Both the position numbers and the translations under genes were made by a program. DNA of 64,000 nucleotides from Gammaproteobacteria bacterium. GTDB lineage: Bacteria > Pseudomonadota > Gammaproteobacteria > JAADGQ01. Shown one piece after another: positions 1 to 15,052 of the stretch. Each line of letters starts with the position of its first letter. Position 1 is the stretch's first letter. The stretch is from the NCBI GenBank assembly GCA_015490755.1, contig WFXF01000017.1, positions 1 through 64,000 of the forward strand, given 5' to 3'. The notes under the pieces were generated by a model. The model had not been told where the DNA came from, searched no databases, and was given only the letters and a program-made list of their open reading frames with translations.

Positions 1-1926
1 CCAGCTCCAGCTGGCATCATTTCTTGTTGATTTATAGAGCCAGTCATTTTCAACAAGGTAATCAATACCTGAGCTCTTCCAGTTATTGGTTTGATAACCC
101 GTTGCAGCTTTGTTATCTACATTCAAATGCAATTGGGTATTGACCCCTATACCACTGCCTTCAATTAAAAAGTATATATGGCTGGCATCACTCACCATTT
201 TTAGTGTTTTCAGGCTTTGGCTATTTGCTGTTGCAATCGGAGTGACACCTTTCCAGTCTGAAATATTTCCATCTACACGAATTGGAGTATTTCCACCACC
301 ACTACCAGATGAAACTACATTGACTGTTCTTACCGCAGTAACCTTACTACCATAACTATCTTGTGCTGCATAAGTAAGAATATATTTACCTTTTTTATTT
401 ATATTAACGCGATCATTACTCATGACAACCTTAACAAAGTCCCCGTCACGCGAAACTATAGCTCCAGGGTCAATAAAAGATTTGCCTTGTACGACTGTTA
501 CCGGGTTACTGCCACTAAGTGTCATAACAAGTGGTAAAGCCAGTGTATCATCGCCAGGAGTTGGCGCACCTCCTCCTGAATTGCTGACATAATTTACACT
601 GGAAGGTGGTATGGTACCGCCAGCATCCAGGTAACTCTTAATTTTATCAGCAAACCCTCCTGTTTCGCGCAGAAAGTTATATTTACCTCTATCCTCACTC
701 AGCCCACTATATCCTACAACAAATATATAGTGTACCTGTGGACCACCATTACCATAAAAATCCCGAACATCACTATCATGATGTTGTGCCCATACTCCAT
801 CAGGTTGATTCAACAGCAGGTCAATAAAGTCTTGTGCAGAAGCTTGTACCAATTGCGTATCATTATTTCTATACCAGGCATTTCTTCTTTTATTTACGCC
901 TCGGGGATTATTATAAATTGATTCAGAACTAATTGTTGCAACCGTTGGGATCCGATCTTTATATTCTTGGAAATATCTAAAAATAGCATTAGTTGGGTAT
1001 GTTTGGTCGATCCCCTTATTGCATCTACTACCAACTTTACCAAAGTATTGGCTGCACTTACTATGATAAGAGGGGTGCACATCAGGGCTAGAGAGCACAA
1101 CACCTTTATTTGCGATATCCAGCTCGATGGAATTTCGCATCGCATTTACTCCACCGGGATATGAACTATCCAGATAATTATACGTAACCCGCATCCTTGT
1201 TTGAGAAAACATTGAAGATACCGTATCAATTCGTTCTCTTAAATACTCATACTCAGTTGGATTTCCATTTCGCCCCCATCTCCAACCGCTAAATACAGGT
1301 GGATCATATTTACTGGTTTCTCCTGTCACACCTGCGATCATTTCAACCAATGGATTTGAGTCAAATTCATTTGCGATAGCCTGCATTAATCGATTATGAA
1401 CTTTTACCCACTCTGGGTTTGTATAAATCGGTGCATAGTTTCCAGAGTAAGATGTAATACTGGAAGGTTTACCTGTTCTGTAAAAAACCCCATATATTTT
1501 ACCTGGAGCGTTTCGATTTTCACTATACCCATTTGCTGTCACACCGGCCCAACCAAACTTGGGATTTTTTTTCATCCAACCAGGAAGTGCATAATCACGA
1601 TTATAAGTTACCTGAATAATCAGACGCCCATCCCCTTGATAATTTTTCAGGTTTTTTAACTGGCTAATCGAATCGTGTATTGGCTGCAAGTTTACACTGT
1701 TTTCAGAAGGCATGAGATCCTTCATCTTATATAAAACTACAACCCCTCTTATGTGATTAAACCTGCTACTGTCAAGAGCAGAAATTGACATGTCATGGGC
1801 GTATAAACCAGGGTGGTATGCATATGTGTCTACAGACTTTTCAACATCATTTGCCAGACTGGGTGAGCTGTTGATAAATAGCAGAAAAAACAGATTGAAT
1901 AGCAAAAAACGTTGATGCAACTTCAT
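1..1926 (-). CDS. Secreted glycosidase-like protein with Ig-like and CBM9-like domains (3' end off window)
   Basis: An open frame of 642 codons runs from an ATG at 1926 to the left edge with no stop, so the C-terminus is missing. An AGAGG ribosome site lies 8 bases upstream. Residues 1-26 are a hydrophobic signal peptide ending near SPSLA. Residues 35-470 resemble a TIM-barrel glycoside hydrolase of the GH-A type, with a pattern around RGVVVLYKMKDLMPSE and later WVKVHNRLMQAIANEF; I did not identify catalytic acids with confidence. Residues about 495-570 look like a bacterial Ig-like (DUF5011) domain, with PVTVVQGKSFIDPGA. From about 580, IRVDGNISDWKGV and ASHIYFLIEG are typical of a CBM9/DOMON-like sugar- or haem-binding fold. 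The likely role is an exported polysaccharide-active or surface protein. The domain calls are by eye; export is the safest part. Confidence 0.7.
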   Translation of the reverse strand, partial: MKLHQRFLLFNLFFLLFINSSPSLANDVEKSVDTYAYHPGLYAHDMSISALDSSRFNHIRGVVVLYKMKDLMPSENSVNLQPIHDSISQLKNLKNYQGDGRLIIQVTYNRDYALPGWMKKNPKFGWAGVTANGYSENRNAPGKIYGVFYRTGKPSSITSYSGNYAPIYTNPEWVKVHNRLMQAIANEFDSNPLVEMIAGVTGETSKYDPPVFSGWRWGRNGNPTEYEYLRERIDTVSSMFSQTRMRVTYNYLDSSYPGGVNAMRNSIELDIANKGVVLSSPDVHPSYHSKCSQYFGKVGSRCNKGIDQTYPTNAIFRYFQEYKDRIPTVATISSESIYNNPRGVNKRRNAWYRNNDTQLVQASAQDFIDLLLNQPDGVWAQHHDSDVRDFYGNGGPQVHYIFVVGYSGLSEDRGKYNFLRETGGFADKIKSYLDAGGTIPPSSVNYVSNSGGGAPTPGDDTLALPLVMTLSGSNPVTVVQGKSFIDPGAIVSRDGDFVKVVMSNDRVNINKKGKYILTYAAQDSYGSKVTAVRTVNVVSSGSGGGNTPIRVDGNISDWKGVTPIATANSQSLKTLKMVSDASHIYFLIEGSGIGVNTQLHLNVDNKAATGYQTNNWKSSGIDYLVENDWLYKSTRNDASWSW

Positions 1927-2453
1927 TAATTTAACCTCTTTTTTGAACAAAAAGAGACAACCTTGTCGAAAGAACCTGTCCTTGAATTATTTTTTTAAAA
2001 TAACACGCACTTCAATTAATAGTCGGTTTTTTTTAATACAACTTTAATATTTTTTCATCATTAAATTTCAAGGTGCGCTACAACAGTGAGGTATGAGGAA
2101 GCGGAGAGATGATTCCTCGCTTTTCCTATGTCACACTCAGAACACTCCCTATGCAAAACAGACTTCTGAAATTGGAGGAAGCTATGGGTATAAGCAGGTA
2201 CAATTTTGGAGCAAAAGAGCAAGTCTGAACTACTACAAGTAGTGTAGGTCGGGTTAGCGTAGCGTAACCCGACAAAGTAACTGACGAGAAACATGACACC
2301 AATCCAGCAAGCCACAACTCATTCACTACCCTAACACCACGAACTTCCTTTCCATCATGCCGGGTTACGCTACGCTAACCCGACCTACGTTACTACCCAC
2401 TATAAATCACATAGAGCCGTCAAAATGTATAAGTTATTTCTGTTTTATAGATT
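1927..2453. other. Intergenic region with one hairpin repeat
   Basis: This 527-base gap separates the 5' end of the secreted glycosidase-like gene from the 3' end of pilE. It contains the composite repeat at 2244-2388. I see no RNA gene in the rest, and the short open frames on both strands show no recognisable protein. Confidence 0.6.
2244..2388 (-). repeat. Composite REP-like element, copy A (145 bp)
   Basis: Both ends are the same hairpin-forming palindrome, GTAGGTCGGGTTAGCG and its complement, in inverted orientation. The left palindrome is 2244-2273 and the right is 2359-2388. The interior, read on the minus strand, matches the interior of copy B at 10053-10228, for example GTTGTGGCTTGCTGGATTGG here against GTTGTGGTTTGCTGAATTGG there. 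So it is one mobile or amplified unit, not two independent hairpins. No transposase is inside, so it would be non-autonomous (BIME- or MITE-like). Confidence 0.8.
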
Positions 2454-2912
2454 TCACCAACTACTCTCTCCTGTAGAACCATCATTATCTTCATCCCAAC
2501 GCTTCAGGCCCGTATTGGTTATCTCCAGCCAGCCATCACCATCTTGGGCTCCACCCGCGATAGGCGTTGCCCGCAAAGTGTAACGCGTTGCAATCGTTGA
2601 TGCTTGCAGTGTCAAATTATAATATTTTGTTGCCCCCTGCTTTGGGCTTTGTGTGAAAGGTAATGCCGGCAGCGTATTATCAGCTGCCGTCGAACAAAGC
2701 CCATCAGCGCCTCTGTTTTGATAACAGCTGTTTGCAGTATAAAATTTTTCCATAAACTGACTTAACTCTAAAAGCGCTGCCTGTGCATCTCCCCTTCGGG
2801 ATTTTTTAACCTGCTCCAGATAAGAGGGATAAGCAATTCCCGCCAGTATCGCCAACACAATCAAGGCAATCAGCAATTCAATTAACGTAAACCCTTTACG
2901 ATAATTATTCAC
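2454..2912 (-). CDS. pilE: Type IV pilus minor pilin PilE
   Basis: This is a 152-aa minor pilin that would be built into or initiate type IV pilus fibres in the inner membrane. The prepilin peptidase site is KG/FTLIELLIALIVLAIL, with the invariant Glu at +5 and a hydrophobic N-terminal helix. A basic stretch KKSRRGDAQAAL follows, which is typical of PilE-like minor pilins, and the C-terminal part has two cysteines (about residues 63 and 73) for the D-loop. Its ATG overlaps the stop of the preceding small gene by four bases (ATGA), so it is translationally coupled as the last gene of the fimT-pilE operon. The order matches the Pseudomonas fimU-pilVWXY1Y2E cluster. Confidence 0.93.
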   Translation of the reverse strand: MNNYRKGFTLIELLIALIVLAILAGIAYPSYLEQVKKSRRGDAQAALLELSQFMEKFYTANSCYQNRGADGLCSTAADNTLPALPFTQSPKQGATKYYNLTLQASTIATRYTLRATPIAGGAQDGDGWLEITNTGLKRWDEDNDGSTGESSW

Positions 2913-3175
2913 TTTTGTTTCTGCCTTCTAATCTCTTCAATATATTCACTTTTTTGTATATCACGCTGCGCCGAAGATTGCTGCCCCATTCGCTGATTAC
3001 GCAATAGTTCCCTCCTTAATCGCTCGGCCATCTCTTGCCTGTTCACTGCATCACCCGCCTTAAAATTAAATGTAGATGTTACTGTCACTTTTTGCTCTTT
3101 ACTATCTTCCTTTTCAGCAGCCATGAGTGATGTATTGACTAAAATTAAAGCACTCGCTATAAGAACTCTTTTCAT
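2909..3175 (-). CDS. Small exported protein in the PilY2 position
   Basis: This 88-aa protein has a signal peptide (MKRVLIASALILVNTSLMAA) and a charged, glutamine-rich, probably helical mature part with many Arg and Glu residues (AERLRRELLRNQRMG). A longer frame upstream exists, but the ATG at 3175 with GGAG nine bases before it and the signal peptide decide the start. It lies 25 bases after pilY1 and overlaps pilE by four bases. In Pseudomonas aeruginosa the gene between pilY1 and pilE is pilY2, a small protein with a role in pilus assembly. I make the assignment by position only and cannot claim sequence homology. Confidence 0.7.
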   Translation of the reverse strand: MKRVLIASALILVNTSLMAAEKEDSKEQKVTVTSTFNFKAGDAVNRQEMAERLRRELLRNQRMGQQSSAQRDIQKSEYIEEIRRQKQK

Positions 3176-3200
3176 TTTAAATCTCCAAAAACATATGATT

Positions 3201-6200
3201 TTAATCAACCAACTCACGCCAGGAGTTACGACCTGAACGTTGACCACCTGTCACCTCAATTCCGTCCATAACGCCCGTTGTGTTATCCTCTTTTTGAGGT
3301 GCATTAGGTACCATATCGATATCATTCGGACCCGTAGTAGTCACAGATACTCTGTTAGGTTTACCAAACCCCGCGTGTATATGGTTACCACGACTTCCAA
3401 ATTTCCCAGCCGGAAATTGGCCCGTGGCCAGATCATATAAATAGTAGTAAGCCACGTCGAGGGAGCTACAAACACCTGTAGTAGCCGCCAAAGCCACCGG
3501 TAAAACTACTGCATCACCCACAATAGTGGCAGCATCAGTAATCCTTGCGCCCGAAGGCAATGCCGGAATACCCGATGTTTGATTTACATAATATCCGTTA
3601 CCATCAACCCCCGGAGTACCACTGGTATCAGCCGTATAGGTAGCACCATCTGCACTCCACACCCCTGCACTGCCATCACTGCTTGTCCAGGCATTGCGCC
3701 ATACGGGCACATCATCGGTATCACTATCACCATCATGATCAATATAATCTTCCCTGAAAATCGTCAAACGTGAAGTGGATTGTGCTCTCAGGTAACGTTT
3801 GTCGTCACTGCTCGTTGCAATGCCGAGATAAATCAGCTCAGATGAAGATAGTGAAGACGGAACAAAATTACCCAATTTGGCACCCGTTGCATTAAGATCA
3901 TCGCGCAAAGCAGTTTCTGTTTTTAATGCATCATCTGAATCTAATAGTTCGGCACGATAGACATTTCCGTTTTTATCACCCAGATAGATTTCATTTTTAT
4001 CTGAAATTAATGGTACCGAGGTAATTTTGAAAGATAATCCGGTAACTTCAAGTTTGTCATTTTTCTTGGCAACATTGCGAATGACTAATGTTGATACTCC
4101 AGCGCCATTATTCACTACATAAACCGCATAAACTTTATCATCATGGCGCCATAGCTGAGGCTCTCCCCCACCCGGAGAGGTATACCCCGCATACTCATCT
4201 TCCCAAATCAGCTTATGCAGTTTACCGCTATTATTGTTTTTTAGTTTCAATGAGTAATACATTGCGCCTGATTGCGCTGCACCGATGATATAAGTGCCAT
4301 AATTACTACCACTATTTTTTTTGGCGTCCACTGCATAAAAGCGGCCATTCATATAGTCACCAAACTGGAATGTACCAAAGTTTTTCATCTGTTTAACCAG
4401 GCTGCGTGGTGTCCAGCCCCAGAGCAAATCACCATCAGATTGCTTGAACGCATATAAAAAGCCATCGACCGAACTGGTCAACACAATAGGAGTACGATCT
4501 TTTCTGGATGTAACAAACGTACGATAATCTGAATCACGCCATAACGCAGGATCACCAGGCGCGTTCAAAGCCAAGGTATAATTGCCTCTTTCAATCGCCC
4601 CCAGCAGACTACCCGATTTTCGATTCATCAGATAAGCTTCACTGTCATAAGATGGATCAAAGGTATACTCCTTGATCGTATCGGCATCAGGCGTACCACT
4701 GATTTCAAAGGCAGCATCATCCAGATCTTTGAATTTTTCAAGCTCACCATCAGATTCTGTTGACCATAGCCTGCTTTTACGCTCAGCTACAGTCATCTCA
4801 TTGGCGGCATTCCAGCTTAAAGTTAAACTCTCATCACTCCCAACCTCATAAGCTCTGAGATTCCCCGCACTGGGCGATTGTTCACTCCCGGCCAGAAAAA
4901 CCTTGCTTCCTGCTTTGGTGGTAGTTGGAATTGCTGGCGCTACTTCACTCACCTCACCACTCAGCCCGATCTTGCTGAACGTTGTGGAAAGACCGTTTTT
5001 AAGCTCTTCCAGTGTTTGTGCAGAATACGCTTGGGTCGTACCACCGCTGGCTGCAATCAGGTTAGCCTGGTCAATATCACCACTGTTATTCGAGATGATC
5101 ACCACATGCACTCGAACACCAAGATCATTGTATAATTTGGCCGCCATATCTTCCGGTTTGGCATACACCTCAACACCATTAACCATTTCCCAGCGCGCAT
5201 CTTCTTTACCGTCATAGAACAGTAAAATATTATTGTCACGGCAACTGTCATATAGAGTATCTGCCGCTTTATAAGCACTGTAGTAGGCATAAGCACTTTG
5301 CAGTGATTGATAAATCGGTGATTGATGTTGCTGCCAGGGGTGTGAACTAACCGCAACACCTTTACCTCCAGCAATCAATTGGGTACTAGGGTTATAATCA
5401 TTCCCGTCAAGGCTCATCTGTTCATAAGCCATAAAACCCTTGACTTTCTCTCTTTGATCATCATAGCCCAAAGCTGGATCGGGTAGATCCAGGAAAACTC
5501 CCATATGGCGCGAGTTTCCAGGCAAATCTGCTCCCATTGTTTTAACATACCGATAAAAATCAGCAGGGTTGGCGGTACTTTCGTTTGGGCACAAATTCCG
5601 GCCATCGGCACAGGGATCAGCCACGCCCGAAGGGTATGAAGCGGTCATACACTCTGTTGTATCTGCATCTGTGCTTGTATTTGTATCACTACCTGTATCT
5701 GTACTTGTGCCACCACAAACACGTTCATAGCTTGTCTCGCCTGACCATCCGGTCATTGCTCCAATTTCAGCATCCGTCGTGCTGTCATAAAGCCCTTCCC
5801 AATAGTGAGGAACTTCAGAGAAGTAAGCTGTTGTTGTGCCAGACTCTCCTGCGAAAGGCCCCCATGCTCTCAATTGATCAGTCACACGTACGGTTTGATC
5901 CTTTAGCATATAGGCAGGATGAGAGGAGTCGATAAGACTATTCGCATCACAAGCTAAAGAGTAAGAGGTGCTTGACCGGTTTATTCCCCACCGGTCAACC
6001 AAAAAACCGCTACTGTCATCAAACAGATACAGCTCAGGTGTCGCACGATATACATCATAACCACTCCAACGACCTGGATAAGCGTGGTTATAAGGCCGAT
6101 TGGCATTATAAAGAGCCTGAAATATATTTCCCTGTGAGTTATACCATGTTCTACATAGATAATGCTCAATCATCGGATCACCGGCAGCAACTTCAGCAGC

Positions 6201-7211
6201 ACTACGCGCACCTGTAGTATTTTCCACTCCCCAAGGCCAGTCAGTATCATCAATACTGCACTCTGTACGACCTGTTACCTGATCTTCTGCTCCCGCCCTA
6301 TAACGAAACTTAAGTGGCAACCCACCGTCACCACTGTTATTGTCAAGAAAGGTCGTAAAACTATCATCTAAAAAACCACGGCCTGTTTCATAATATTTAC
6401 CACCACTTCCACCATGAGCAGGGTTTCCATAAAGTGGCGCTCCCGTATAGAGATAGGCGCAAGGTGTCTCTACTCCAGGATTACTATAATCATTCCAGTT
6501 TGCCCCACTACCATATGCTGAAGCCCCCCAATCAAACCATTGTCGCCACCATCTTAGCGAAGAAAAATTAGTCATATCATTGCCAAATGCATTTTTGTCG
6601 GGGTTCGATGCTTTAAAGATATCATTTCCACCTGGAAATTTTGGATGAGGTGATGAAGGATCGGCAGGATCACCTCGATTACTTAGATCTTCACCGGGGT
6701 TGCCACCTGCTGGAAATACTTCTGGCCAAGTTGCAGTAGTCAAAACATTTGTCGTGGCCATTGGTAAACCAAATATTTGCCTGAATGTGGCAAAACCGAT
6801 ATTGATATTATCGGAAAGAGCGGGATCATTTAAAATATCCAGAAAGGCCTCTTTGCTCTTATAAAGCTTTGAAGATGGCTGGTTACCATGAAGATTGGTA
6901 TTTCCATCTCCCAAGAAAGTTCCACTGCTATCCCAAGGTGCGGATGAACTCCAGCTAAATGCAGGGTTCCATTGATTGAAACCGAGATCATCGAAACGAT
7001 AGTAATTATCATGTTCAACTCCATCACCATTGATATCCAGTGACGGGTAATTGACATCATCCATTTCACGATTCATCGAGAATGCTGTACTGAAAATAAT
7101 CATCAAATTAGGGGCGACTGTAGTTGTGGTATTTGTGCTTGCACTCACATTAGGTGTGACCAACAAGCTCAATATGATAATGGCACTACACAGCTTTCGA
7201 TAAACACGCAT
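3201..7211 (-). CDS. pilY1: Type IV pilus tip adhesin / assembly protein PilY1
   Basis: This 1336-aa exported protein carries the PilY1 C-terminal beta-propeller (about residues 765-1240), with the blade signature YLGDKNGNVYRAEL near 1075. PilY1 proteins sit at the pilus tip with the minor pilins, prime assembly and act in adhesion or surface sensing. A signal peptide covers residues 1-24. The N-terminal half has a von Willebrand A-like layout starting NLMIIFSTAFSMN, but the metal-binding DxSxS residues are replaced. The Asp-rich calcium loop that normally precedes the blade motif is reduced to SDKNE, while other Asp-rich loops occur near the N-terminus (LDINGDGVEHD) and at about 1155 (DHDGDSDTDD). 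It lies between pilX and the PilY2-position gene and starts 43 bases after the pilX stop. Confidence 0.9.
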   Translation of the reverse strand: MRVYRKLCSAIIILSLLVTPNVSASTNTTTTVAPNLMIIFSTAFSMNREMDDVNYPSLDINGDGVEHDNYYRFDDLGFNQWNPAFSWSSSAPWDSSGTFLGDGNTNLHGNQPSSKLYKSKEAFLDILNDPALSDNINIGFATFRQIFGLPMATTNVLTTATWPEVFPAGGNPGEDLSNRGDPADPSSPHPKFPGGNDIFKASNPDKNAFGNDMTNFSSLRWWRQWFDWGASAYGSGANWNDYSNPGVETPCAYLYTGAPLYGNPAHGGSGGKYYETGRGFLDDSFTTFLDNNSGDGGLPLKFRYRAGAEDQVTGRTECSIDDTDWPWGVENTTGARSAAEVAAGDPMIEHYLCRTWYNSQGNIFQALYNANRPYNHAYPGRWSGYDVYRATPELYLFDDSSGFLVDRWGINRSSTSYSLACDANSLIDSSHPAYMLKDQTVRVTDQLRAWGPFAGESGTTTAYFSEVPHYWEGLYDSTTDAEIGAMTGWSGETSYERVCGGTSTDTGSDTNTSTDADTTECMTASYPSGVADPCADGRNLCPNESTANPADFYRYVKTMGADLPGNSRHMGVFLDLPDPALGYDDQREKVKGFMAYEQMSLDGNDYNPSTQLIAGGKGVAVSSHPWQQHQSPIYQSLQSAYAYYSAYKAADTLYDSCRDNNILLFYDGKEDARWEMVNGVEVYAKPEDMAAKLYNDLGVRVHVVIISNNSGDIDQANLIAASGGTTQAYSAQTLEELKNGLSTTFSKIGLSGEVSEVAPAIPTTTKAGSKVFLAGSEQSPSAGNLRAYEVGSDESLTLSWNAANEMTVAERKSRLWSTESDGELEKFKDLDDAAFEISGTPDADTIKEYTFDPSYDSEAYLMNRKSGSLLGAIERGNYTLALNAPGDPALWRDSDYRTFVTSRKDRTPIVLTSSVDGFLYAFKQSDGDLLWGWTPRSLVKQMKNFGTFQFGDYMNGRFYAVDAKKNSGSNYGTYIIGAAQSGAMYYSLKLKNNNSGKLHKLIWEDEYAGYTSPGGGEPQLWRHDDKVYAVYVVNNGAGVSTLVIRNVAKKNDKLEVTGLSFKITSVPLISDKNEIYLGDKNGNVYRAELLDSDDALKTETALRDDLNATGAKLGNFVPSSLSSSELIYLGIATSSDDKRYLRAQSTSRLTIFREDYIDHDGDSDTDDVPVWRNAWTSSDGSAGVWSADGATYTADTSGTPGVDGNGYYVNQTSGIPALPSGARITDAATIVGDAVVLPVALAATTGVCSSLDVAYYYLYDLATGQFPAGKFGSRGNHIHAGFGKPNRVSVTTTGPNDIDMVPNAPQKEDNTTGVMDGIEVTGGQRSGRNSWRELVD

Positions 7212-7254
7212 AATTTCAATCCTCTTACCGTAAAGATAGCGCTTTAACAGTATG

Positions 7255-7848
7255 TTAAAGCCCTACATCAATATTAAATAAAGTCTGGATTTTCACCGTG
7301 GTATTCTCTTCCTCGCCATACCCCAGGCTGGTCACCACAAATGTCGCCACTAATCCACCTGGCGCACTACTGCTTTCAAATCCTTTACGTTTTTCAAGAT
7401 TAAGCAACACTACTTGATGGCGTGGGTCTTTTGAGATTGCACTATTTGCGCCAAAAAGAGCTGTTACCTGAGCATCACTTAACTCCTGATTCTGTACACC
7501 ACCAGAATCTTTCCAGTCCACGGCGGGACGATTCCAAGGTTGGGCATTTCCACCATTATCCTTACAGTCAGCAGACAGAGTACTTGGATCATCAACAAAC
7601 AAATCACACCATTTAGTGATATCTATATTAAAAATATTACCATCGACTACATCAAATACATCTTGCTCAACCCAGGAGGCAGTTGTTTCTGCTGCCTGAA
7701 AAGCAACCTGTCGATCCTGAGCATTTTTAGCCATACGCTCTTGCGTACGCGTACCATGTGTTGAACTCACGCCTAATAATGTAATGACTAATAGCACCAA
7801 CAAACTGATCATCAATACAGTACCGCTCTGTTTTTTCATATTAATCAT
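7255..7848 (-). CDS. pilX: Minor pilin-like protein PilX
   Basis: This is a 197-aa protein whose N-terminus, KKQSGTVLMISLLVLLVIT, is the atypical pilin-like helix of PilX, without the usual FTLxE but with a Gly before the hydrophobic run. A second hallmark, RMAKNAQDRQVAFQAAETT, is the conserved PilX motif. It joins PilV, PilW and PilE in the priming complex that carries PilY1. I chose the ATG at 7848, five bases after a GGAG; a GTG one codon upstream is also possible. It follows pilW by eight bases. Confidence 0.9.
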   Translation of the reverse strand: MINMKKQSGTVLMISLLVLLVITLLGVSSTHGTRTQERMAKNAQDRQVAFQAAETTASWVEQDVFDVVDGNIFNIDITKWCDLFVDDPSTLSADCKDNGGNAQPWNRPAVDWKDSGGVQNQELSDAQVTALFGANSAISKDPRHQVVLLNLEKRKGFESSSAPGGLVATFVVTSLGYGEEENTTVKIQTLFNIDVGL

Positions 7849-7856
7849 CACAACTC

Positions 7857-8624
7857 CTAATTTCTTAATGTCACAGTTGTTGTTACAACACGCCGCCTTA
7901 AACGGTCTGTATAGGGCCCACTTGCGGTTCCTAACAGGGTGTAATTTTGTGCCAAATCACTGCTCTCTACAGCAATTGTGGTATTAAATAACAGCGCCAT
8001 TCGCACACTCACTACCTCACTCCAGTCTGTAATAGCTGCTGCATTGGCATAACGGTTAGCCGCACCATTCGCATCATCATCCAGGCCATACAAAATCTGC
8101 ATATCATCAACACCTTCAGCCAATACCTGCTCTGCCACAACCTTCGATACAACGCCAGTTGTTGCATTCAAAATTTCAGCCCTGCAGATCAAACTGCCAC
8201 TATTAATGTAAAAAATTATATTCGTCACTTCTCCAGGGGCCAATGCATCGCCAAGGCAGTTATCCGTTGCACCCAAAATACTTCCCAGATAACGAAAGAC
8301 CACGAAGTCAGGAGTGCCGCTGCTACCATTAACGCCGTGAATAACTTGCCCATTCGAGAATCCGGGTAGTGCCAACGAGAAATCATCAGTTATCAGATTA
8401 GGTGAAGCATCTCTATACCCAGCCAAACGCATATAACGCCCAACCATATCTAATGCAAAACGCGAATTTTCCTGCAAAATTGAAAAGCCTTCATTAGATT
8501 GATGAGATAATCGATGGCTTTGAAAAGCCTGGATCAACCCGGCAGTAAGAATCATTCCAATAACCAAAGCCACCATCACTTCGACTAAAGTAAAACCACG
8601 TTGTTGAGTCAATAATGATTTCAT
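7857..8624 (-). CDS. pilW: Type IV pilus minor pilin PilW
   Basis: This 255-aa minor pilin has the cleavage site RG/FTLVEVMVALVIGMIL with Glu at +5 and the longer C-terminal domain usual for PilW. NSRFALDMVGRYMRLAGYRD is the family's conserved segment after the first helix. It forms the minor-pilin core complex with PilV, PilX and FimU/FimT. Its start overlaps the end of pilV by four bases, implying coupled translation. Confidence 0.92.
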   Translation of the reverse strand: MKSLLTQQRGFTLVEVMVALVIGMILTAGLIQAFQSHRLSHQSNEGFSILQENSRFALDMVGRYMRLAGYRDASPNLITDDFSLALPGFSNGQVIHGVNGSSGTPDFVVFRYLGSILGATDNCLGDALAPGEVTNIIFYINSGSLICRAEILNATTGVVSKVVAEQVLAEGVDDMQILYGLDDDANGAANRYANAAAITDWSEVVSVRMALLFNTTIAVESSDLAQNYTLLGTASGPYTDRLRRRVVTTTVTLRN

Positions 8625-9124
8625 AAAGCAAACCTGAAGTTAAAGCTCTGTACTGACCCTTCAAGATCATTCCAGGTAATTGTGACGGTATGCGGTGAAG
8701 TTTCTGTGCATGGGGTTTCATTACATTCAATTGTTCCTGTTCCAGAAGGCAAATACTCTGACAGCGCGGATAACCAACCATAGTCAGCGGCAGCAATATC
8801 TGCTAAAGCAAACTCTGCTTCTGTGCATGTAGTGCCAGAGCCTGTGCCTGAAAAATTATCGACACAATTGAATGCAGGAGCACTTTCAGTTCCATCAACA
8901 TCCGCGTACGCTCCATTGCCAACAGCTATTGGATTCGCACGCATTCTATCAGCAATATCGTAGGCTAAAAACACGGCCTGACTGCGCAAGTATGCATCGC
9001 TATTATTTTGAGTGCTTGTTATTTGCAACGCAGCAACGCCCAGAATACCCACACCTAAAATAGCGATAGATACCAAAACCTCAATCAGCGTAAAACCCTT
9101 GTTTTTCATATTCATCAAGTACAT
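8621..9124 (-). CDS. pilV: Type IV pilus minor pilin PilV
   Basis: This 167-aa minor pilin has KG/FTLIEVLVSIAILGVGILGVAALQ, the class-specific helix of PilV, followed by YLRSQAVFLAYDIADRMRAN, another PilV hallmark. Three in-frame ATGs are possible (9124, 9115 and 9109); I keep the first, which overlaps the 3' end of fimT. Four cysteines in the C-terminal half could form disulfides in the periplasm. Confidence 0.92.
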   Translation of the reverse strand: MYLMNMKNKGFTLIEVLVSIAILGVGILGVAALQITSTQNNSDAYLRSQAVFLAYDIADRMRANPIAVGNGAYADVDGTESAPAFNCVDNFSGTGSGTTCTEAEFALADIAAADYGWLSALSEYLPSGTGTIECNETPCTETSPHTVTITWNDLEGSVQSFNFRFAL

Positions 9125-9738
9125 GAATTCACCGCTGCATTCACATCAGCATGATCACCTGCCACTGTTCTGATGCGTCCGATTTGAGAAATAATAATAA
9201 TACGAGCCTTGCTTTTGTCTGTTGCAAAAACTTTTATTTGGTCATTACAGAGAATAAGTTGCCCATTCGTTGCAGTGGCATAACCTGAAGCCAGAAAAGT
9301 CACACGGTTAGTGACTGTGCCAAACTTACCACGCAAGGTCGTTTTTGCACCTTCCAGTGGCAGGTGAACCTGAAAAGGGGTTTCATCTATTGCTGGATCA
9401 GCAGAATAATCCACAACATCATCAGCATCTCTATCAATAAAAGCGATCCAGCCCTGCTCCCAGCCACCTGAGGTCGTGCAAGCTGGCTCCGCCACCGCTG
9501 GATTATTGCTTTTGCATACTGTCACTCGAATGCCTTGCTTAAGCGCTTCGCTTCGAGCTGCATTCAGTGTGCGAACGAACTCATTCACCGCTGCTGTCAT
9601 ACGATTATTGCTCACGGTACTTTGAAAACTTGGAATAGCAACCATCATCACAATAGTGGCAACTGCAATAGTGACCATCAGTTCGATCAATGAAAAACCT
9701 GTAGAGTACTTCCCTGTCTGGATCGTACTACTTTGCAT
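9115..9738 (-). CDS. fimT: Type IV pilus minor pilin FimT/FimU (GspH-like)
   Basis: This 207-aa minor pilin opens the operon. It has the processing site TG/FSLIELMVTIAVATIVMM and the GspH/FimT-type downstream motif FVRTLNAARSEALKQGIRVTVCKS. FimU in Pseudomonas links the minor-pilin complex to the major pilin; FimT proteins also bind DNA in competent bacteria, and I cannot separate the two here. A GAGGTG ribosome site precedes the ATG. The 229 bases upstream to the ATPase fragment must hold the operon promoter, but I found no convincing -35/-10 or sigma-54 site. Confidence 0.9.
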   Translation of the reverse strand: MQSSTIQTGKYSTGFSLIELMVTIAVATIVMMVAIPSFQSTVSNNRMTAAVNEFVRTLNAARSEALKQGIRVTVCKSNNPAVAEPACTTSGGWEQGWIAFIDRDADDVVDYSADPAIDETPFQVHLPLEGAKTTLRGKFGTVTNRVTFLASGYATATNGQLILCNDQIKVFATDKSKARIIIISQIGRIRTVAGDHADVNAAVNSCT

Positions 9739-9967
9739 ACAACTTTCACCTCAACTATGTACAACTGATATGTCGATTACGTACGTATTTTTAACTATCG
9801 TTCTCTGCCAGCACAAACTTAAATTCTAATTTTGCTGGTTGTTATACCTCGATTCTGCAAGTTATTTTACGCACCAGGCTAAATATCAAGAATGTGCTAT
9901 ATTGATGTCACCTGTTGTAATTCAAAAAATATATAATTATATTGAATTCATTACTTTTAATAACCAC

Positions 9968-10066
9968 ATGATACAAAGACAACTTTTTTCTACAATTCAA
10001 AAAAGGCTCTTCAAAGGGAAAGCCATTCTCATTTTTGGTGCTCGTCAGGTGGGTAGGTCGGGTTAG
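9968..10066 (+). pseudogene. AAA ATPase (DUF4143 type) fragment cut in its P-loop
   Basis: From the ATG at 9968 the frame reads MIQRQLFSTIQKRLFKGKAI then LIFGARQVG, the start of the DUF4143-associated AAA ATPases, whose Walker A continues GKTTL. Exactly at the second P-loop glycine the sequence changes into repeat copy B, which adds Arg-Ser-Gly and a stop. No continuation of the ATPase is seen beyond the repeat at 10229. The remaining 29 codons cannot make an ATPase. Confidence 0.75.
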
Positions 10067-10228
10067 CGCAGCGTAACCCGACATGATGAAATGGATCGGA
10101 ACTTATTACCCACGAATTGGGGCGAAAATAGTGTGGTGTTAGCGGCGGATGTAGTTGTGGTTTGCTGAATTGGTGCCATGCCTTTCGTCAATTACTTTGT
10201 CGGGTTACGCTGCGCTAACCCGACCTAC
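10053..10228 (+). repeat. Composite REP-like element, copy B (176 bp)
   Basis: It has the same terminal palindromes as copy A (10053-10081 and 10199-10228), with one T-to-C change in each loop (GCGCAGCG for GCGTAGCG). The interior aligns with the complement of copy A's, plus about 30 extra bases around 10110-10140. Relative to copy A it is inverted, and the two bracket the pilin operon. The left junction falls inside a Walker A codon, which fixes the insertion edge. Confidence 0.8.
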
Positions 10229-10305
10229 GTTACTGATGAAGTCTGAATTGAATTTTTACAGAACAGGGACTTCAGCCCCTTCATCTAAATCAGGGCTAAA
10301 GGCAT

Positions 10306-10335
10306 AAAAAAACCCGACCGAAGTCGGGTTTTTTT
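10306..10335 (-). terminator. Rho-independent terminator of rpsD
   Basis: A perfect hairpin, AACCCGAC-cgaa-GTCGGGTT, is flanked by A- and T-runs on both sides, 20 bases beyond the rpsD stop. It is symmetrical and would also stop any plus-strand transcript. Confidence 0.92.
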
Positions 10336-10354
10336 ATCACGATCAGTAAAAACC

Positions 10355-10975
10355 TTAACGAGAATAAAACTCTACAACAAGGTTAGGACTCATCTGAACA
10401 GGATAAGGAACATCACTGATAACTGGAACCTCTTTGAAAATACCTTTTACATTTTCTTCCATTGTGATGTAGTCAGGAATATCGCGCTCCATTTTTTGTA
10501 ACGCTTCGATCACCATTGGAATTTTTTGACTCTTCTCACGTATCTCAATCACATCACCGGGCTTGCAGCGATAAGATGGGATATTAACAACCACACCATT
10601 CACTGTGACATGCTTGTGATTAACAAACTGACGTGCAGCAAAAACGGTTGGAACAAAATTCATACGATAAACAATCGCATCAAGACGAGACTCAAGCAAC
10701 CCGATCAGATTTTCTGAAGTATCACCTTTACGGCGTGAGGCTTCTTTGAAAATAGCCCGAAACTGCTTTTCACTAATGCTGCCGTAGTAACCTTTAATTT
10801 TCTGTTTTTCACGTAACTGAACACCATAATCGGTCACTTTGGCACGTTTAGCACCATGCATACCAGGACGTGTTCCTTTAGAATTCGTGGGACATTTACT
10901 GCGTCCCCATAAATTTTCGCCCAGGCGGCGACAAATTTTGTACTTCGGGATCGTACGCTGATTACTTCCAGCCAT
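10355..10975 (-). CDS. rpsD: 30S ribosomal protein S4, alphaproteobacterial-type paralogue
   Basis: This 206-aa S4 protein binds 16S rRNA early in 30S assembly. The C-terminal S4 RNA-binding domain (about residues 98-160) contains [12 protein letters not shown] and [14 protein letters not shown], and the protein ends VVEFYSR. The N-terminus ([15 protein letters not shown]) and the segment [12 protein letters not shown] are those of the alphaproteobacterial S4 type, not the gammaproteobacterial MARYLGPKLKLSRREG type. Two cysteines (15 and 28) remain where zinc-binding S4 has four. It is stand-alone, with its own promoter and terminator, outside the alpha operon (rpsM-rpsK-rpsD-rpoA) where rpsD normally sits. 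A second, transferred or stress-type S4 is likely, but the main copy lies outside this window. Confidence 0.9.
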
Positions 10976-11406
10976 AATATATTTCCTCTATTTCACGCTT
11001 TAAAATTAAAAAGTTGGAATGACCTGTAAAACAGGCTTCGCAATAGCTTCCCGTGCCGCACCTATCGAAAAAGTAACATAAAGTGACTCCCATAAGGCGG
11101 ATCGCGAACGGGCTTTATACATGAACACCCTATAAAAATCAAAAAAACATCAAAATCCCAAGAGAATTTTTCAAGATAATAACCCAGACGAAGTAAACCA
11201 GTTTTTTCTGTGATAACACCAGAAATTCCCGCCAGCAATCGAACTCAGCTAAAACAGGGGCTTGGTAGAGCATTTACAAAAATCTACTCTTTTCAGTTAT
11301 TTAGGTTGTTATGGGGTTTACTATTAAATTCTTATCCAGTTGCAAACTGTGCAAAAAACACAAAGGGGCATACACAAATTAACTTTCTGCTTTTTTCAAT
11401 GACATA
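10976..11406. other. Intergenic region: rpsD leader and promoter
   Basis: This 431-base gap lies between rpsD and cobC, both on the minus strand. It holds the rpsD promoter at 11114-11142 and a leader of about 130 bases with several short GC-rich stems, in which S4 autoregulation is conceivable. No tRNA or other RNA gene was found between 11143 and 11406. Confidence 0.5.
11114..11142 (-). promoter_or_regulatory. Sigma-70 promoter of rpsD
   Basis: On the minus strand a TTGATT (-35) and a TATAAA (-10) are separated by exactly 17 bases, followed by a GC-rich start region (GCCCGTTCGCG) typical of growth-rate-controlled ribosomal promoters. Transcription would begin near 11107. Confidence 0.65.
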
Positions 11407-11988
11407 TTACAAACGTAATAAAGCCCCATCTTGTTTGATATGAATACGCTCAATCGCAGCATGTTTGACTTCAAACTCAAGCATGCGCCTGACAGGATGG
11501 TTCAATATATGGCAAAGCAATAGGCGAATGACACCGCCGTGTGTCACCAATAATATTTTTTCACCTGCATGGCGCGCGATAATCTCCTGCCAAGCGGCGA
11601 CAATACGCACTTCAAAATCGAGCAATGGCTCGGCCTCTGGAGGCGTGTATTTTACTGGATCATTCCAGAAGTTTGTCAGCGCATCCGCATCTGTTTTCAT
11701 CAGATCTTCGACAAAGCAACCTTCCCATTGACCAAAGTGTATCTCTTGAAACTGTCGATCAACTGTCAGCGGTATTGAATGTTGTCTGGCTAATTCATGA
11801 GCAAAGTCAGCACAGCGTTTAAGCGGTGAACTTATGATGTGATCCCAGCAAGGATCACGCTGATCTATTGCCGCTCTCATTTGAGAGAGGCCAAACTCAG
11901 TTAAGGCATCATCAATACTGCCACGTAAACAGGCACCACCGCTGGTTTCACCATGGCGTAACAGATCAATGAAAGTATCAGTGCTCAT
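11407..11988 (-). CDS. cobC: Alpha-ribazole-5'-phosphate phosphatase CobC (histidine phosphatase)
   Basis: This is a 193-aa histidine-phosphatase-superfamily protein with the catalytic LLRHGETSGG motif at its start, SSPLKRCADFA and a second catalytic His in THGGVIRLL. In the nucleotide-loop pathway CobC removes the phosphate of alpha-ribazole-5'-phosphate or of adenosylcobalamin-5'-phosphate. I chose the ATG at 11988; a longer frame upstream would run through the cobT 3' end in another frame. It begins seven bases after the cobT stop as the last gene of the cobalamin operon. Similar phosphatases act elsewhere, so the function rests on the neighbours. Confidence 0.85.
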   Translation of the reverse strand: MSTDTFIDLLRHGETSGGACLRGSIDDALTEFGLSQMRAAIDQRDPCWDHIISSPLKRCADFAHELARQHSIPLTVDRQFQEIHFGQWEGCFVEDLMKTDADALTNFWNDPVKYTPPEAEPLLDFEVRIVAAWQEIIARHAGEKILLVTHGGVIRLLLCHILNHPVRRMLEFEVKHAAIERIHIKQDGALLRL

Positions 11989-11995
11989 GCGTTGT

Positions 11996-13060
11996 TTATA
12001 ACTTTTCTGAAACGGCTGCTTGTGCAAAAGTCGCCATTTTATTATGCAGTGCACAAGCAAGGCGCAATAGTGGCACTGCTGCTGCCGCACCACTTCCCTC
12101 GCCAAGACGCATCCCCAGGTCAAGCAAAGGCTGCGCACTCAAAGCATCCAACACACATTGATGACCCGGCTCAGCTGAAGTGTGGGAAAAAAGAAACCAG
12201 TTTTCAGCACCGCAGCAAATTTTCACCGCCACTAACGCAGCAACAGAGCTGATAAAACCATCAACTAAAACGGGGATACGCATTTGAGCGCAGGCAATAT
12301 ACGCCCCCACTAAAGCTGCAATCTCAAAGCCTCCGACTCGACGTAAAGCTTCAAGTGGTGAGTCAATATACGGTTTGTGCAAATTCAGCGCAGTTTGAAT
12401 TACCTGAGCTTTGTGCTCAACCCCGGTGTGATCAAGCCCTGTACCTGGCCCTGCGAGCTGCGCCGGTGATGCATCAAGTAAAAGGCAAGCCAAAGCGCTT
12501 GATGCAGTGGTGTTAGCTATGCCCATTTCACCACCAATAAAAAGGTCAATTGCTGATTTTTTAGCCTTATCAACAACTTCATACCCCGCACTCAGTGCGC
12601 GAACTAATTGTGACTCTGTCATTGCAGCTTGTTTTGTAAAATTAGCCGTTGCCAAACCCAGCTTATATTGCTTAACCCCTTCGAGTGGCCCTGTATCATA
12701 TGCCGTGCCTAAATTAACCACGTCCAAATTTGCACCAATGGCTCGCGCACTGACACAAATAGCCGCACCACCCCGAGCAAAATTTTTCACCATTTCTGCC
12801 GTCACCGCTTGAGGAAAAGCAGACACACCCTCATCGGCAACGCCATGATCACCAGCAAATACGGTGATCTGTATATTTTCAAGACTGGGGCGCTCCGAGC
12901 CTTTAAGTGCAGCAAGCCAAATGGCTACCTCTTCCAATCGACCCAAGGCACCGGGGGGTTTGGTCAGTTCAGTTTGACGTACTTCAGCCGCTTGCCGAGT
13001 TTTTTTGTCAGGAATAGCTGAGGGAGTATTGAGCCATGCCAAGTTTTTGAGTTCTGTCAT
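11996..13060 (-). CDS. cobT: Nicotinate-nucleotide-dimethylbenzimidazole phosphoribosyltransferase CobT
   Basis: This is a 354-aa enzyme that activates the lower ligand: nicotinate mononucleotide plus dimethylbenzimidazole gives alpha-ribazole-5'-phosphate. Family motifs are KPPGALGRLE near the start, VFAGDHGVADEGVSAFPQ, GGEMGIANTTASSA and GPGTGLDHTGVEHK. A Glu in the C-terminal part (LGEGSGAAAA) is the expected catalytic base. The ATG at 13060, with AGGAG before it, overlaps the cobU stop as ATGA. Confidence 0.95.
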   Translation of the reverse strand: MTELKNLAWLNTPSAIPDKKTRQAAEVRQTELTKPPGALGRLEEVAIWLAALKGSERPSLENIQITVFAGDHGVADEGVSAFPQAVTAEMVKNFARGGAAICVSARAIGANLDVVNLGTAYDTGPLEGVKQYKLGLATANFTKQAAMTESQLVRALSAGYEVVDKAKKSAIDLFIGGEMGIANTTASSALACLLLDASPAQLAGPGTGLDHTGVEHKAQVIQTALNLHKPYIDSPLEALRRVGGFEIAALVGAYIACAQMRIPVLVDGFISSVAALVAVKICCGAENWFLFSHTSAEPGHQCVLDALSAQPLLDLGMRLGEGSGAAAAVPLLRLACALHNKMATFAQAAVSEKL

Positions 13061-13578
13061 ATTGAGTCTCCTTTTAATATGTGAGGCAGACCTGCAACGG
13101 TCAAAATGACTCGTTGACAGATCTGGGCAATCTCTTGATGCAGGCAACCCGCTTCATCACAATAGCGACGGCTGAGTTCACCTAACGGCGTGATGCCCAT
13201 GTTGGTTTCATTGCTGACTAAAATAATTTGCCCAGCTAAAGTGGGCAATATTGAAAGTAAAGCTTCGCGCTCATGTTTAAACTGCGCTTCATCATCTGTC
13301 ATGAGAAGATTTGTTAGCCACAGCGTTAAGCAGTCAACCAGTATGCACTTGTCGTTACTGGCATGTTTTTCTAACACTGCTGCCAAATTCAAAGGTTCTT
13401 CGATGAGCGCCCAATGACTCGGGCGATGAATACGGTGCGCCGTGATACGCGCCTGCATCTCCTCATCTTGTACCGTTGCGGTTGCGATATAAGTGACGGG
13501 TAAGTTACTCTCTGTTGCAAGCCGTTCGGCCAAACGGCTTTTGCCAGAACGCACCCCTCCAAGAATGAGTGTTTTCAT
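13057..13578 (-). CDS. cobU: Adenosylcobinamide kinase / guanylyltransferase CobU
   Basis: This 173-aa bifunctional enzyme phosphorylates adenosylcobinamide and then transfers GMP to give AdoCbi-GDP. The P-loop LILGGVRSGKSRLAE starts the protein, followed by TYIATATVQDEEMQARI and ILVDCLTLWLTNLL. VSNETNMGITPLGELSRRYCDEAG is also a family signature. It is two bases downstream of cobQ and overlaps cobT. Confidence 0.95.
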   Translation of the reverse strand: MKTLILGGVRSGKSRLAERLATESNLPVTYIATATVQDEEMQARITAHRIHRPSHWALIEEPLNLAAVLEKHASNDKCILVDCLTLWLTNLLMTDDEAQFKHEREALLSILPTLAGQIILVSNETNMGITPLGELSRRYCDEAGCLHQEIAQICQRVILTVAGLPHILKGDSI

Positions 13579-13579
13579 G

Positions 13580-15052
13580 TCAATTCGCCTCTAAAATATG
13601 ACGCAATTTATCAGTATTGAGGTGTATTTCTACGGCATCGGCCAACCGTTCAATGGCTGATTCACGCAAACCATGATAATCCTGTTTTTTGGCATCACTC
13701 AAACCCGCCCATTTAAGTAACTCCATACATGCCTCTGATGATTCGAACAGACCGTGTAGATAAGTTCCTAAAACCTGTCCATCCTGGCTTATAGCTCCCT
13801 CCACTCGATCACCTAAATTAATGACAGGATGACCAAGTGCCAGACCAGATGTGACACCGGCATGAATCTCATAACCAGAAACAGTTACATCACCGATCAG
13901 TAGCTTTCCACTGACATTACGCAGCTGCTTTTCAGCAGCCAGAGTTGTCTCTAACTCAAGTAGCCCCAAACCATCACAAGATCCTGAGCCACCTTCAACT
14001 CCAAGGGGATCATGGACTGTCTGCCCTAACATCTGGAAACCACCACAAATACCAATAAGTTTACCGCCATAACGTAAATGCCGTTGAATCGCGCAACCCC
14101 ATCCTTGCTTGCGTAAATAAGCAAGATCGTTACGTATACTTTTTGATCCTGGAAGAATGATCAGATCTGCAGCTGGAATTTCATCATTGGGTCCAATAAA
14201 TTGCAGCTCTACCTGTGGGTGCAAGCGCAGCGGATCAAAATCGGTATGATTACTGATACGGGGCAAGACAGGAACAATAACTCGAAGATATGGTACACCT
14301 GTTTGCGGGGCAATATCAGCCTCACGGGGCAATGCATCTTCTGCTTCCAGGTGCAAACCACGCAGATAGGGCAAAACACCCAATACTGGTTTTCCCGTGT
14401 ATTCCTCCAGCCAGTCCAGACCTGATTGCAACAGAGCGATATCGCCACGGAAACGATTGATCACAAAACCTTTGATGCGCTTTTGTTCACTCTCGCTCAA
14501 TAGAGCCAGCGTACCAACCAGATGAGCAAAAACACCGCCACGGTCAATATCTGCTACTAAAATAACGGGGCAATCCACCGCTTCAGCAAAACCCATATTG
14601 GCAATATCATTATCACGCAGGTTAATTTCTGCGGGTGAACCTGCTCCTTCCACAATCACTGCATCAAAATCAGCAGCAAGGCGCTTGTGTGATTCCAGCA
14701 CTGCTTGATGTGCAATACGCTTGTAATCATGATAATCACTCGCTTCCATATTGCCAATGGCATGACCATGAATAATCACTTGAGCCCCCACCTCCGTGTT
14801 GGGTTTGAGCAATACGGGGTTCATATCAGTATGAGGCTCTAGTCGACACGCCTGGGCTTGCACCGCCTGAGCACGACCAATCTCTCCACCATCTACACTC
14901 ACTGCACTGTTGAGCGCCATATTCTGTGGTTTAAAAGGTGCTACACGAATACCTTGCTTAACCCACCAACGGCACAGAGCTGTCACTAACAAGCTTTTGC
15001 CCGCATCAGAAGTGGTGCCTTGAACCATGAGTGTGCGGGTAGTACTGATCAT
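13580..15052 (-). CDS. cobQ: Adenosylcobyric acid synthase CobQ/CbiP
   Basis: This 490-aa glutamine amidotransferase amidates the b, d, e and g side chains of adenosylcobyrinic acid a,c-diamide. The N-terminal dethiobiotin-synthetase-like ATPase domain (1-230) has [20 protein letters not shown] and [10 protein letters not shown]. The class I amidotransferase domain (about 250-450) has the catalytic Cys in [12 protein letters not shown] and a His in GTYLHGLFE. It lies five bases after cobO. Its presence implies de novo or corrinoid-ring salvage capacity, but ring-forming genes are not in this window. Confidence 0.95.

Follow-up and report, generated by a model that had tools for sequence, protein, structure and literature searches.

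REPIN-like repeats with RAYT gene remnants at their core in a gammaproteobacterial genome

We analyzed a 64,000-nucleotide stretch of DNA from a gammaproteobacterium (contig WFXF01000017.1, positions 1 to 64,000 of assembly GCA_015490755.1; hereafter the window), in which two short, related repeat units lie in opposite orientation on either side of a minor-pilin operon. Each unit consists of two repetitive extragenic palindrome (REP) hairpins with a core between them. The cores of these units and of their copies across the genome are remnants of a gene for a REP-associated tyrosine transposase (RAYT), in which the ribosome-binding leader is joined to the end of the gene. The units are very probably non-autonomous elements, similar both to REP doublets forming hairpins (REPINs) and to miniature inverted-repeat transposable elements (MITEs), that arose as internal-deletion derivatives of a RAYT unit. 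Their main interest lies in the question of how REPINs originate.

Two inverted units and their copies across the genome

The first unit occupies positions 2244–2388 of the window (145 bp) and the second, inverted relative to it, positions 10053–10228 (176 bp). A repeat search of the window recovered two inverted pairs, one of 82 nt (2238–2319 and 10153–10234, 88% complementary) and one of 43 nt (2346–2388 and 10053–10095, 91% complementary), so that hairpins and core are both common to the two units. This agrees with the initial annotation, which had described two related units of 145 and 176 bp in opposite orientation, with common terminal hairpins and a homologous core. Four 26-bp palindromes (2248–2273, 2359–2384, 10057–10082, and 10199–10224) each carry GTAG on their outer side. 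Folded as single-stranded DNA, each unit forms one long hairpin (z = -10.2 and -9.0), and none of 200 shuffles folded as well. Rfam returned no matches in positions 1–14000 of the window, and terminator and promoter scans gave counts about as expected from shuffles.

The genome to which the window belongs is a draft of 2.63 Mb in 94 contigs, 99.67% complete. A BLAST search of the whole genome with positions 2230–2410 yielded 53 matches at 18 places, of which 15 bear the core (C17a and C17b in the window, and C88, C77a, C10, C43, C41a, C41b, C41c, C28, C6, C9, C69, C76, and C77b) and three are single hairpins. Fourteen of the core-bearing copies were aligned; the other, C77b, retains the 3' half only. 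The initial annotation had regarded hairpin, core, and hairpin as one element rather than as isolated REPs, and this holds: other copies in the genome have the core as well. Fourteen of these 15 copies do not overlap any open reading frame (ORF) of at least 100 aa, and the sole such ORF in the remaining one, C69, is its own RAYT relic.

The three single hairpins, C51 (L103 ~1735–1805), C83 (L104 ~1895–1935), and C87 (L105 ~1720–1760), have GTAG/CTAC at both feet and look like "double foot" products of the central deletion of an inverted pair. Copy C41b (contig 41, L010 ~1630–1765) contains an extra insert of ~130 bp within one hairpin, apparently a third kind of small repeat.

We also searched 142 other genomes (143 including that of the window) for the element at the DNA level, scoring at most five first-look candidates per genome. 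Nineteen of them had a match, and among the matches listed only hairpins were found, never the core. The same search, likewise limited to first-look candidates, gave no match in the same-genus genome G001 or the same-family genome G002. Plasmids contained no match to the composite element C88, and nine RAYT loci from named organisms (L090–L098) contained no close match to this hairpin.

Cores as remnants of a RAYT gene

The most informative copy is C69 on contig 69, which has ~400 bp between its hairpins and encodes a 103-aa in-frame protein (L012:1202–1513). This protein scores 96.5 bits against the NCBIfam model NF047646 REP_Tyr_transpos (cut-off 80), with residues 2–81 aligned to positions 1–80 of the 146-position profile, and was found again at 94.6 bits in a six-frame search of the genome. 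Its score against the IS200 profile is 18.7 bits, below the cut-off of that profile. Aligned with five intact RAYTs of 177–178 aa from other genomes, the C69 protein keeps the N-terminal half, including the HUH-type motif HLHCIW, while the middle is gone; its C-terminal tail matches too, ending in VVLAANMGRE where one intact RAYT has VVELEGVGAE.

Other copies retain different parts of the same gene. In C76 (contig 76) the leader and the 5' part of the RAYT gene are followed directly by the trailer (match to C69 over 141 columns at 90% identity, E = 1e-42). C17b, taken here as window positions 10053–10234, has kept the leader and roughly 20 codons from the end of the gene (82.6% identity to C69 over 155 columns by blastn, E = 3e-39). 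In C88 and C77a the leader is joined to the last RAYT codons, with a 94–96% match to the 3' part (E = 2e-41 for C77a); translation of C88 across the junction reads MMERKFVVLAADVGSE followed by a stop. Based on the junctions, the copies fall into deletion classes A' (C88 and C77a, together with C17a, which has lost 11 bp more, and eight copies 6 bp shorter at the same junction), B (C17b), C (C69), and D (C76). These classes represent four different internal deletions of one RAYT unit, found at different loci and with the same outer ends. The initial annotation had stated that no RAYT gene is present; this is correct for an intact gene in the window, but the cores themselves are what remains of one.

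The same parts can be traced in both units of the window. Copy C17a, which includes the unit at 2244–2388 and a further 6 nt of AGTA-type terminus on each side (2238–2394), lies with the RAYT sense on the minus strand. Its two GTAG-tagged hairpins, located by the repeat and palindrome searches, correspond to the 3' end (2244–2273, plus strand) and the 5' end (2359–2388, minus strand) of the RAYT unit. Between them, on the minus strand, are the remnant of the ribosome-binding leader, CATGATGGAAAGGAAGTTC (2341–2359; hairpin and leader together are 92.6% identical to the contig-69 copy over 54 nt), and what is left of the 3' end of the RAYT gene with its trailer (2274–2340), in which the additional 11 bp are missing relative to C88 and C77a. 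Copy C17b (10053–10228) has the RAYT sense on the plus strand and shows a different internal deletion. Its hairpins, from the same searches, lie at 10053–10082 (5' end of the RAYT unit, plus strand) and 10199–10228 (3' end, minus strand), and the ~20 codons aligned with the C-terminus of the contig-69 relic read DRNLLPTNWGENSVVLAADV (10094–10153, plus strand).

Intact hairpin-RAYT-hairpin units in other genomes

Among the 19 relatives with hairpins, we inspected the loci that matched best for ORFs resembling a RAYT. In five gammaproteobacterial genomes, belonging to five other families (G016, G017, G023, G030, and G082), an intact RAYT of 177–178 aa lies directly between the same hairpins, in units of 608–649 bp with a leader of 7–26 nt and a trailer of 10–49 nt. 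Both GTAG tags point outward in four of these units. The leader in G016 (gatggaaaaggaa...) resembles the one retained in the cores described here (catgatggaaaggaag). Compared with the 19 relatives, the G016 RAYT gene matched in 10, with one near-full-length match each in G016, G017, G023, G030, and G082; the remaining matches are shorter and diverged (67–88% identity). Since intact RAYTs elsewhere have 177–178 aa, an intact unit in the genome of the window would be expected to measure ~650 bp, and the six-frame NF047646 search of that genome found none.

Proposed origin by internal deletion

The parent RAYT unit would have consisted of a REP hairpin, a leader, the RAYT gene, a short trailer, and an inverted REP hairpin. 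Internal deletion of this unit would have produced short units in which both outer ends are kept. A RAYT protein, either the unit's own before its decay or one supplied in trans, would have recognized the GTAG-tagged hairpins on single-stranded DNA and copied or moved everything between them, so that shortened copies went on spreading. The units retain both ends of the presumed parent together with parts of its interior, and lack an intact transposase, as is characteristic of MITEs. At the least, the units with gene pieces inside reached new loci together with both REPs.

Several observations weigh against this origin. The deletions in A', B, and D all lie inside what C69 retains, so these classes could descend serially from one C69-like defective copy instead of from several units of full length. 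The genome contains no intact cognate RAYT, as only one of six NF047646 matches, the broken C69, passes the cut-off, and for this reason present mobility is unproven. Copies C43, C28, C6, and C9 reach contig ends and could be fragments of a smaller number of real copies, so the true copy number may be slightly below 15. For C77a, the one copy examined for an empty site, the flanks lie on two different contigs of G001, giving no pair of insertion and empty site. The upstream hairpin of the intact unit in G082 is flipped. Finally, the G016 RAYT query recovered no RAYT-derived short copies or near-identical fragments among the 19 hairpin-bearing relatives, and the phenomenon therefore rests on one draft genome.

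A further possibility, which we advance only tentatively and consider somewhat less likely to be right than wrong, is that in this lineage the RAYT gene with its two flanking REPs was itself a self-mobile transposon, from which REPINs were being born by repeated internal deletion. If so, this genome would keep the intermediate that has been proposed, but not observed, on the way from an autonomous IS200-like element to REPINs, and would speak against the immobility of RAYT units. Such immobility is the view expressed in the literature: RAYTs have been described as single-copy and apparently incapable of self-mobilization (PMC3116915), and a 2021 paper reports no evidence of mobility of tnpA-REP (PMC8266576).

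An outer ISL3-type layer

Many of the units are accompanied by a 24-bp arm (GGCTCTATGTGATTTATAGTGGGT), which occurs 11 times in the genome when up to 3 mismatches are allowed; every occurrence adjoins one of these units, at 10 loci in all. In C88 both arms are present, and the element is flanked on each side by ATTGTTTT, an 8-bp target duplication; 8 bp is the length of the target duplication made by ISL3-family elements. In no other copy can both arms be seen, and most loci show one; at C17a the sole arm (2395–2418, minus strand) lies on one side of the copy. In G001 the same arm, with 1 mismatch, opens an insertion sequence (IS) that encodes a 409-aa transposase of the ISL3 family (PF01610, 253.7 bits). 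Because several copies sit within a MITE with 24-bp arms, one of them complete and with an 8-bp duplication, an ISL3-family transposase probably moved copies too, as a second and later route of spread for units nested in this MITE.

The 10 loci with at least one arm beside the unit, the duplication at the two-armed copy, and the arm of the ISL3-family IS in G001 could also be taken to mean that the copies were spread by the ISL3-type MITE alone, with the RAYT part as a passenger. We consider this unlikely, as six of the 15 core-bearing copies are arm-less (C17b, C77a, C10, C41a, C69, and C76). Four of these, C77a, C10, C41a, and C69, end at identical AGTA...GTAG boundaries, which indicates that the unit has ends of its own apart from the ISL3 layer. 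The units thus resemble ISL3-family MITEs in the 24-bp arms in common with the G001 IS and in the one 8-bp target duplication, but differ in carrying a REPIN inside and in showing one arm only at most loci. One mobile element, a RAYT-derived REPIN, is here nested in another, an ISL3-type MITE, which provides two possible routes of spread after the loss of the element's own transposase.

The side on which the long arm occurs is not constant. It is on the leader side in C28 and C6 (L007, contig 28 end; L008, contig 6 start) and on the trailer side in C88 (L107, contig 88), C43, C41b, and C41c. Either the core has flipped within its hairpins, or the contigs may be ambiguously assembled at C28 and C6.

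Position around the minor-pilin operon

The fimT-pilE operon lies between the two copies of the window (2454–9738, minus strand) and is context rather than part of the element. It encodes FimT/GspH, PilV-type, PilW, and PilX proteins, a PilY1-like protein (below the Pfam cut-off), and a PilE/ComP-like pilin. Beyond the second copy is rpsD (10355–10975, minus strand). The initial annotation had the repeats flank exactly this operon and suggested that they could allow its inversion or mark it as a moved cassette. The pair does adjoin both ends of the operon, but with 15 core-bearing loci the element is not confined to it. The second copy is upstream of fimT, but is equally downstream of rpsD.

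In G001 the operon (window positions 2456–9803) aligns over 7.4 kb at 76% DNA identity with G001:C16 17175–9874, where it adjoins prmC and not rpsD; the rpsD region (10298–11142) aligns with G001:C16 50910–50044. The prmC gene of the genome studied here is on contig 60, with no pilin genes beside it. The relative thus has an intact operon without the element, although its junction is not the same as the one in the window. Adjacent to the orthologue of this operon, G001 carries another minor-pilin operon, which is divergent and includes a large PilY1-like gene (L099 1419–9693; names by resemblance). We tried to polarize the move of the operon by means of G002 and did not succeed, as the pilin loci of G002 are too diverged.

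It is quite improbable that the pair is a recombination device, whether by inversion of the 7.7-kb pilin segment or as the boundary of a cassette, the operon, that the repeats have moved, although some features are in keeping with this. No alternative orientation was seen, though there were no reads in which to look for one. The copies are inverted, 88–91% alike over 82 and 43 nt, and adjoin both ends of an operon whose context differs in G001 on the prmC side. Both window copies fall in gaps between synteny blocks with G001, and a third, C77a, whose flanks map to G001 contigs C12 and C4, is within ~850 bp of a synteny break. All three copies with placeable flanks are at breaks, in a comparison that covered ~100 kb of G001 and has no genome-wide baseline. 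On the other side, the prmC block on contig 60 has a synteny break at either end but no copy at either, so breaks arise without the element. No copy is present at the operon location of G001 or at the prmC locus on contig 60, nor did we find at these two loci a repeat-bounded operon segment or a scar of one. The operon sits elsewhere in G001, but with no repeat there, and there is no sign that its change of place was the work of the repeats. Moreover, C17a and C17b belong to different deletion classes, so neither is a duplicate of the other made by duplication of a cassette end. When 15 copies were placed at random in 2.63 Mb, a neighboring pair within 7.85 kb occurred with P = 0.48, and an inverted one with P = 0.27.

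The inversion or cassette proposed in the initial annotation is thus unsupported, given the intact repeat-free operon in G001 and the frequency of such pairs by chance, and the bracketing position looks like a coincidence. The plain reading is that of two independent insertions, one downstream of pilE and one downstream of rpsD, which form no cassette with the operon. REPs are reported to lie mostly downstream of coding regions (PMC3733652).

A short ORF (MIQRQLFSTIQKRLFKGKAILIFGARQVG...) at positions 9968–10063 of the window is cut off where the 176-bp copy starts. We take it to resemble the beginning of a gene for an AAA ATPase that the insertion disrupted; Pfam assigned no family to its 29 residues.

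Relation to known REP elements

The units resemble REPINs and bacterial interspersed mosaic elements (BIMEs) in having inverted REP hairpins with outward GTAG tags, a fold of the whole unit into one hairpin, a multicopy and intergenic distribution, and single-hairpin remnants. Of the features by which REPINs are recognized, two inverted REP palindromes, a GTAG facing outward at the foot of each REP, and dispersed intergenic copies were found, while a cognate full-length RAYT in the same genome was not, in what is a draft assembly. As REPs with an absent or pseudogenized RAYT have been reported (PMC3686654), membership in the REPINs is compatible with this lack. The difference lies in the core, which here is a recognizable remainder of a RAYT gene, whereas the published REPIN spacer is described as short and highly diverse (PMC8049555). 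It is very unlikely that these are ordinary REPINs with an unrelated spacer, in which the resemblance to RAYT would be due to chance or a by-product of REPIN insertion beside a RAYT gene. REPINs are indeed two inverted REPs and a spacer, and their clusters often adjoin RAYT genes (PMC3116915, PMC8049555). However, in copies at different loci the core matches both the leader and the 3' end of a single RAYT gene, correctly ordered and oriented (E down to 2e-41 for C77a). The two hairpins that enclose the C69 relic also enclose the intact RAYTs of five other families, and both the joins of leader to C-terminus and the graded deletions argue against such a reading.

A second known arrangement is the RAYT (tnpA-REP) gene with flanking REPs, or REPtron. 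The order of hairpin, RAYT, and hairpin, the match to NF047646, and leader and trailer lengths as in the five intact units are similar, but the gene is broken in every copy here, and parts of the unit are scattered over many loci. A third comparison is with IS200/IS605 elements and short derivatives of these, in that an HUH/Y1 transposase gene is located between terminal hairpins. Short deletion derivatives of IS200/IS605 keep both ends and lose the gene. Unlike these, the protein described here falls in the RAYT branch (NF047646 at 96.5 bits versus IS200 at 18.7 bits), and the ends are paired GTAG-tagged REPs.

The origin of REPINs has been stated to be unknown, with descent from REPs on either side of an IS200-like ancestor named as one possibility (PMC3116915). 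Purified enzymes from E. coli and Stenotrophomonas cut REPs in single-stranded form, and the extent to which the GTAG tag takes part varies (PMC8266576). Pseudogenized RAYTs, in some cases due to deletion, have been reported from pseudomonads and stenotrophomonads (PMC3686654). Units with graded RAYT pieces between REPs are the kind of evidence that the idea of an IS200-like ancestor predicts, and they make that idea testable. In the portions of the REP, REPIN, and RAYT literature covered by our search, which was not exhaustive, there is no description of RAYT gene remains inside dispersed REPINs; an intermediate with such remains inside mobile repeats had been proposed earlier, and we did not find one described in those sources.

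Other Y1 transposase genes in the genome

A search with PF01797 gave five Y1_Tnp matches in the genome (contigs 38, 8, 22, 85, and 87), which we considered as candidates for the cognate RAYT and rejected. Those on contigs 38, 8, 22, and 85 are below the NF047646 cut-off, and that on contig 87, which spans 20 profile positions, is outside the NF047646 list. No REP hairpin of the family found in C17a and C17b was seen at these five loci. Three of them, on contigs 38, 8, and 22 (L031, L032, and L033), are RAYT-like genes that belong to branches other than that of the repeat-forming RAYT; a DnaA-like C-terminal domain is present in two of the three.

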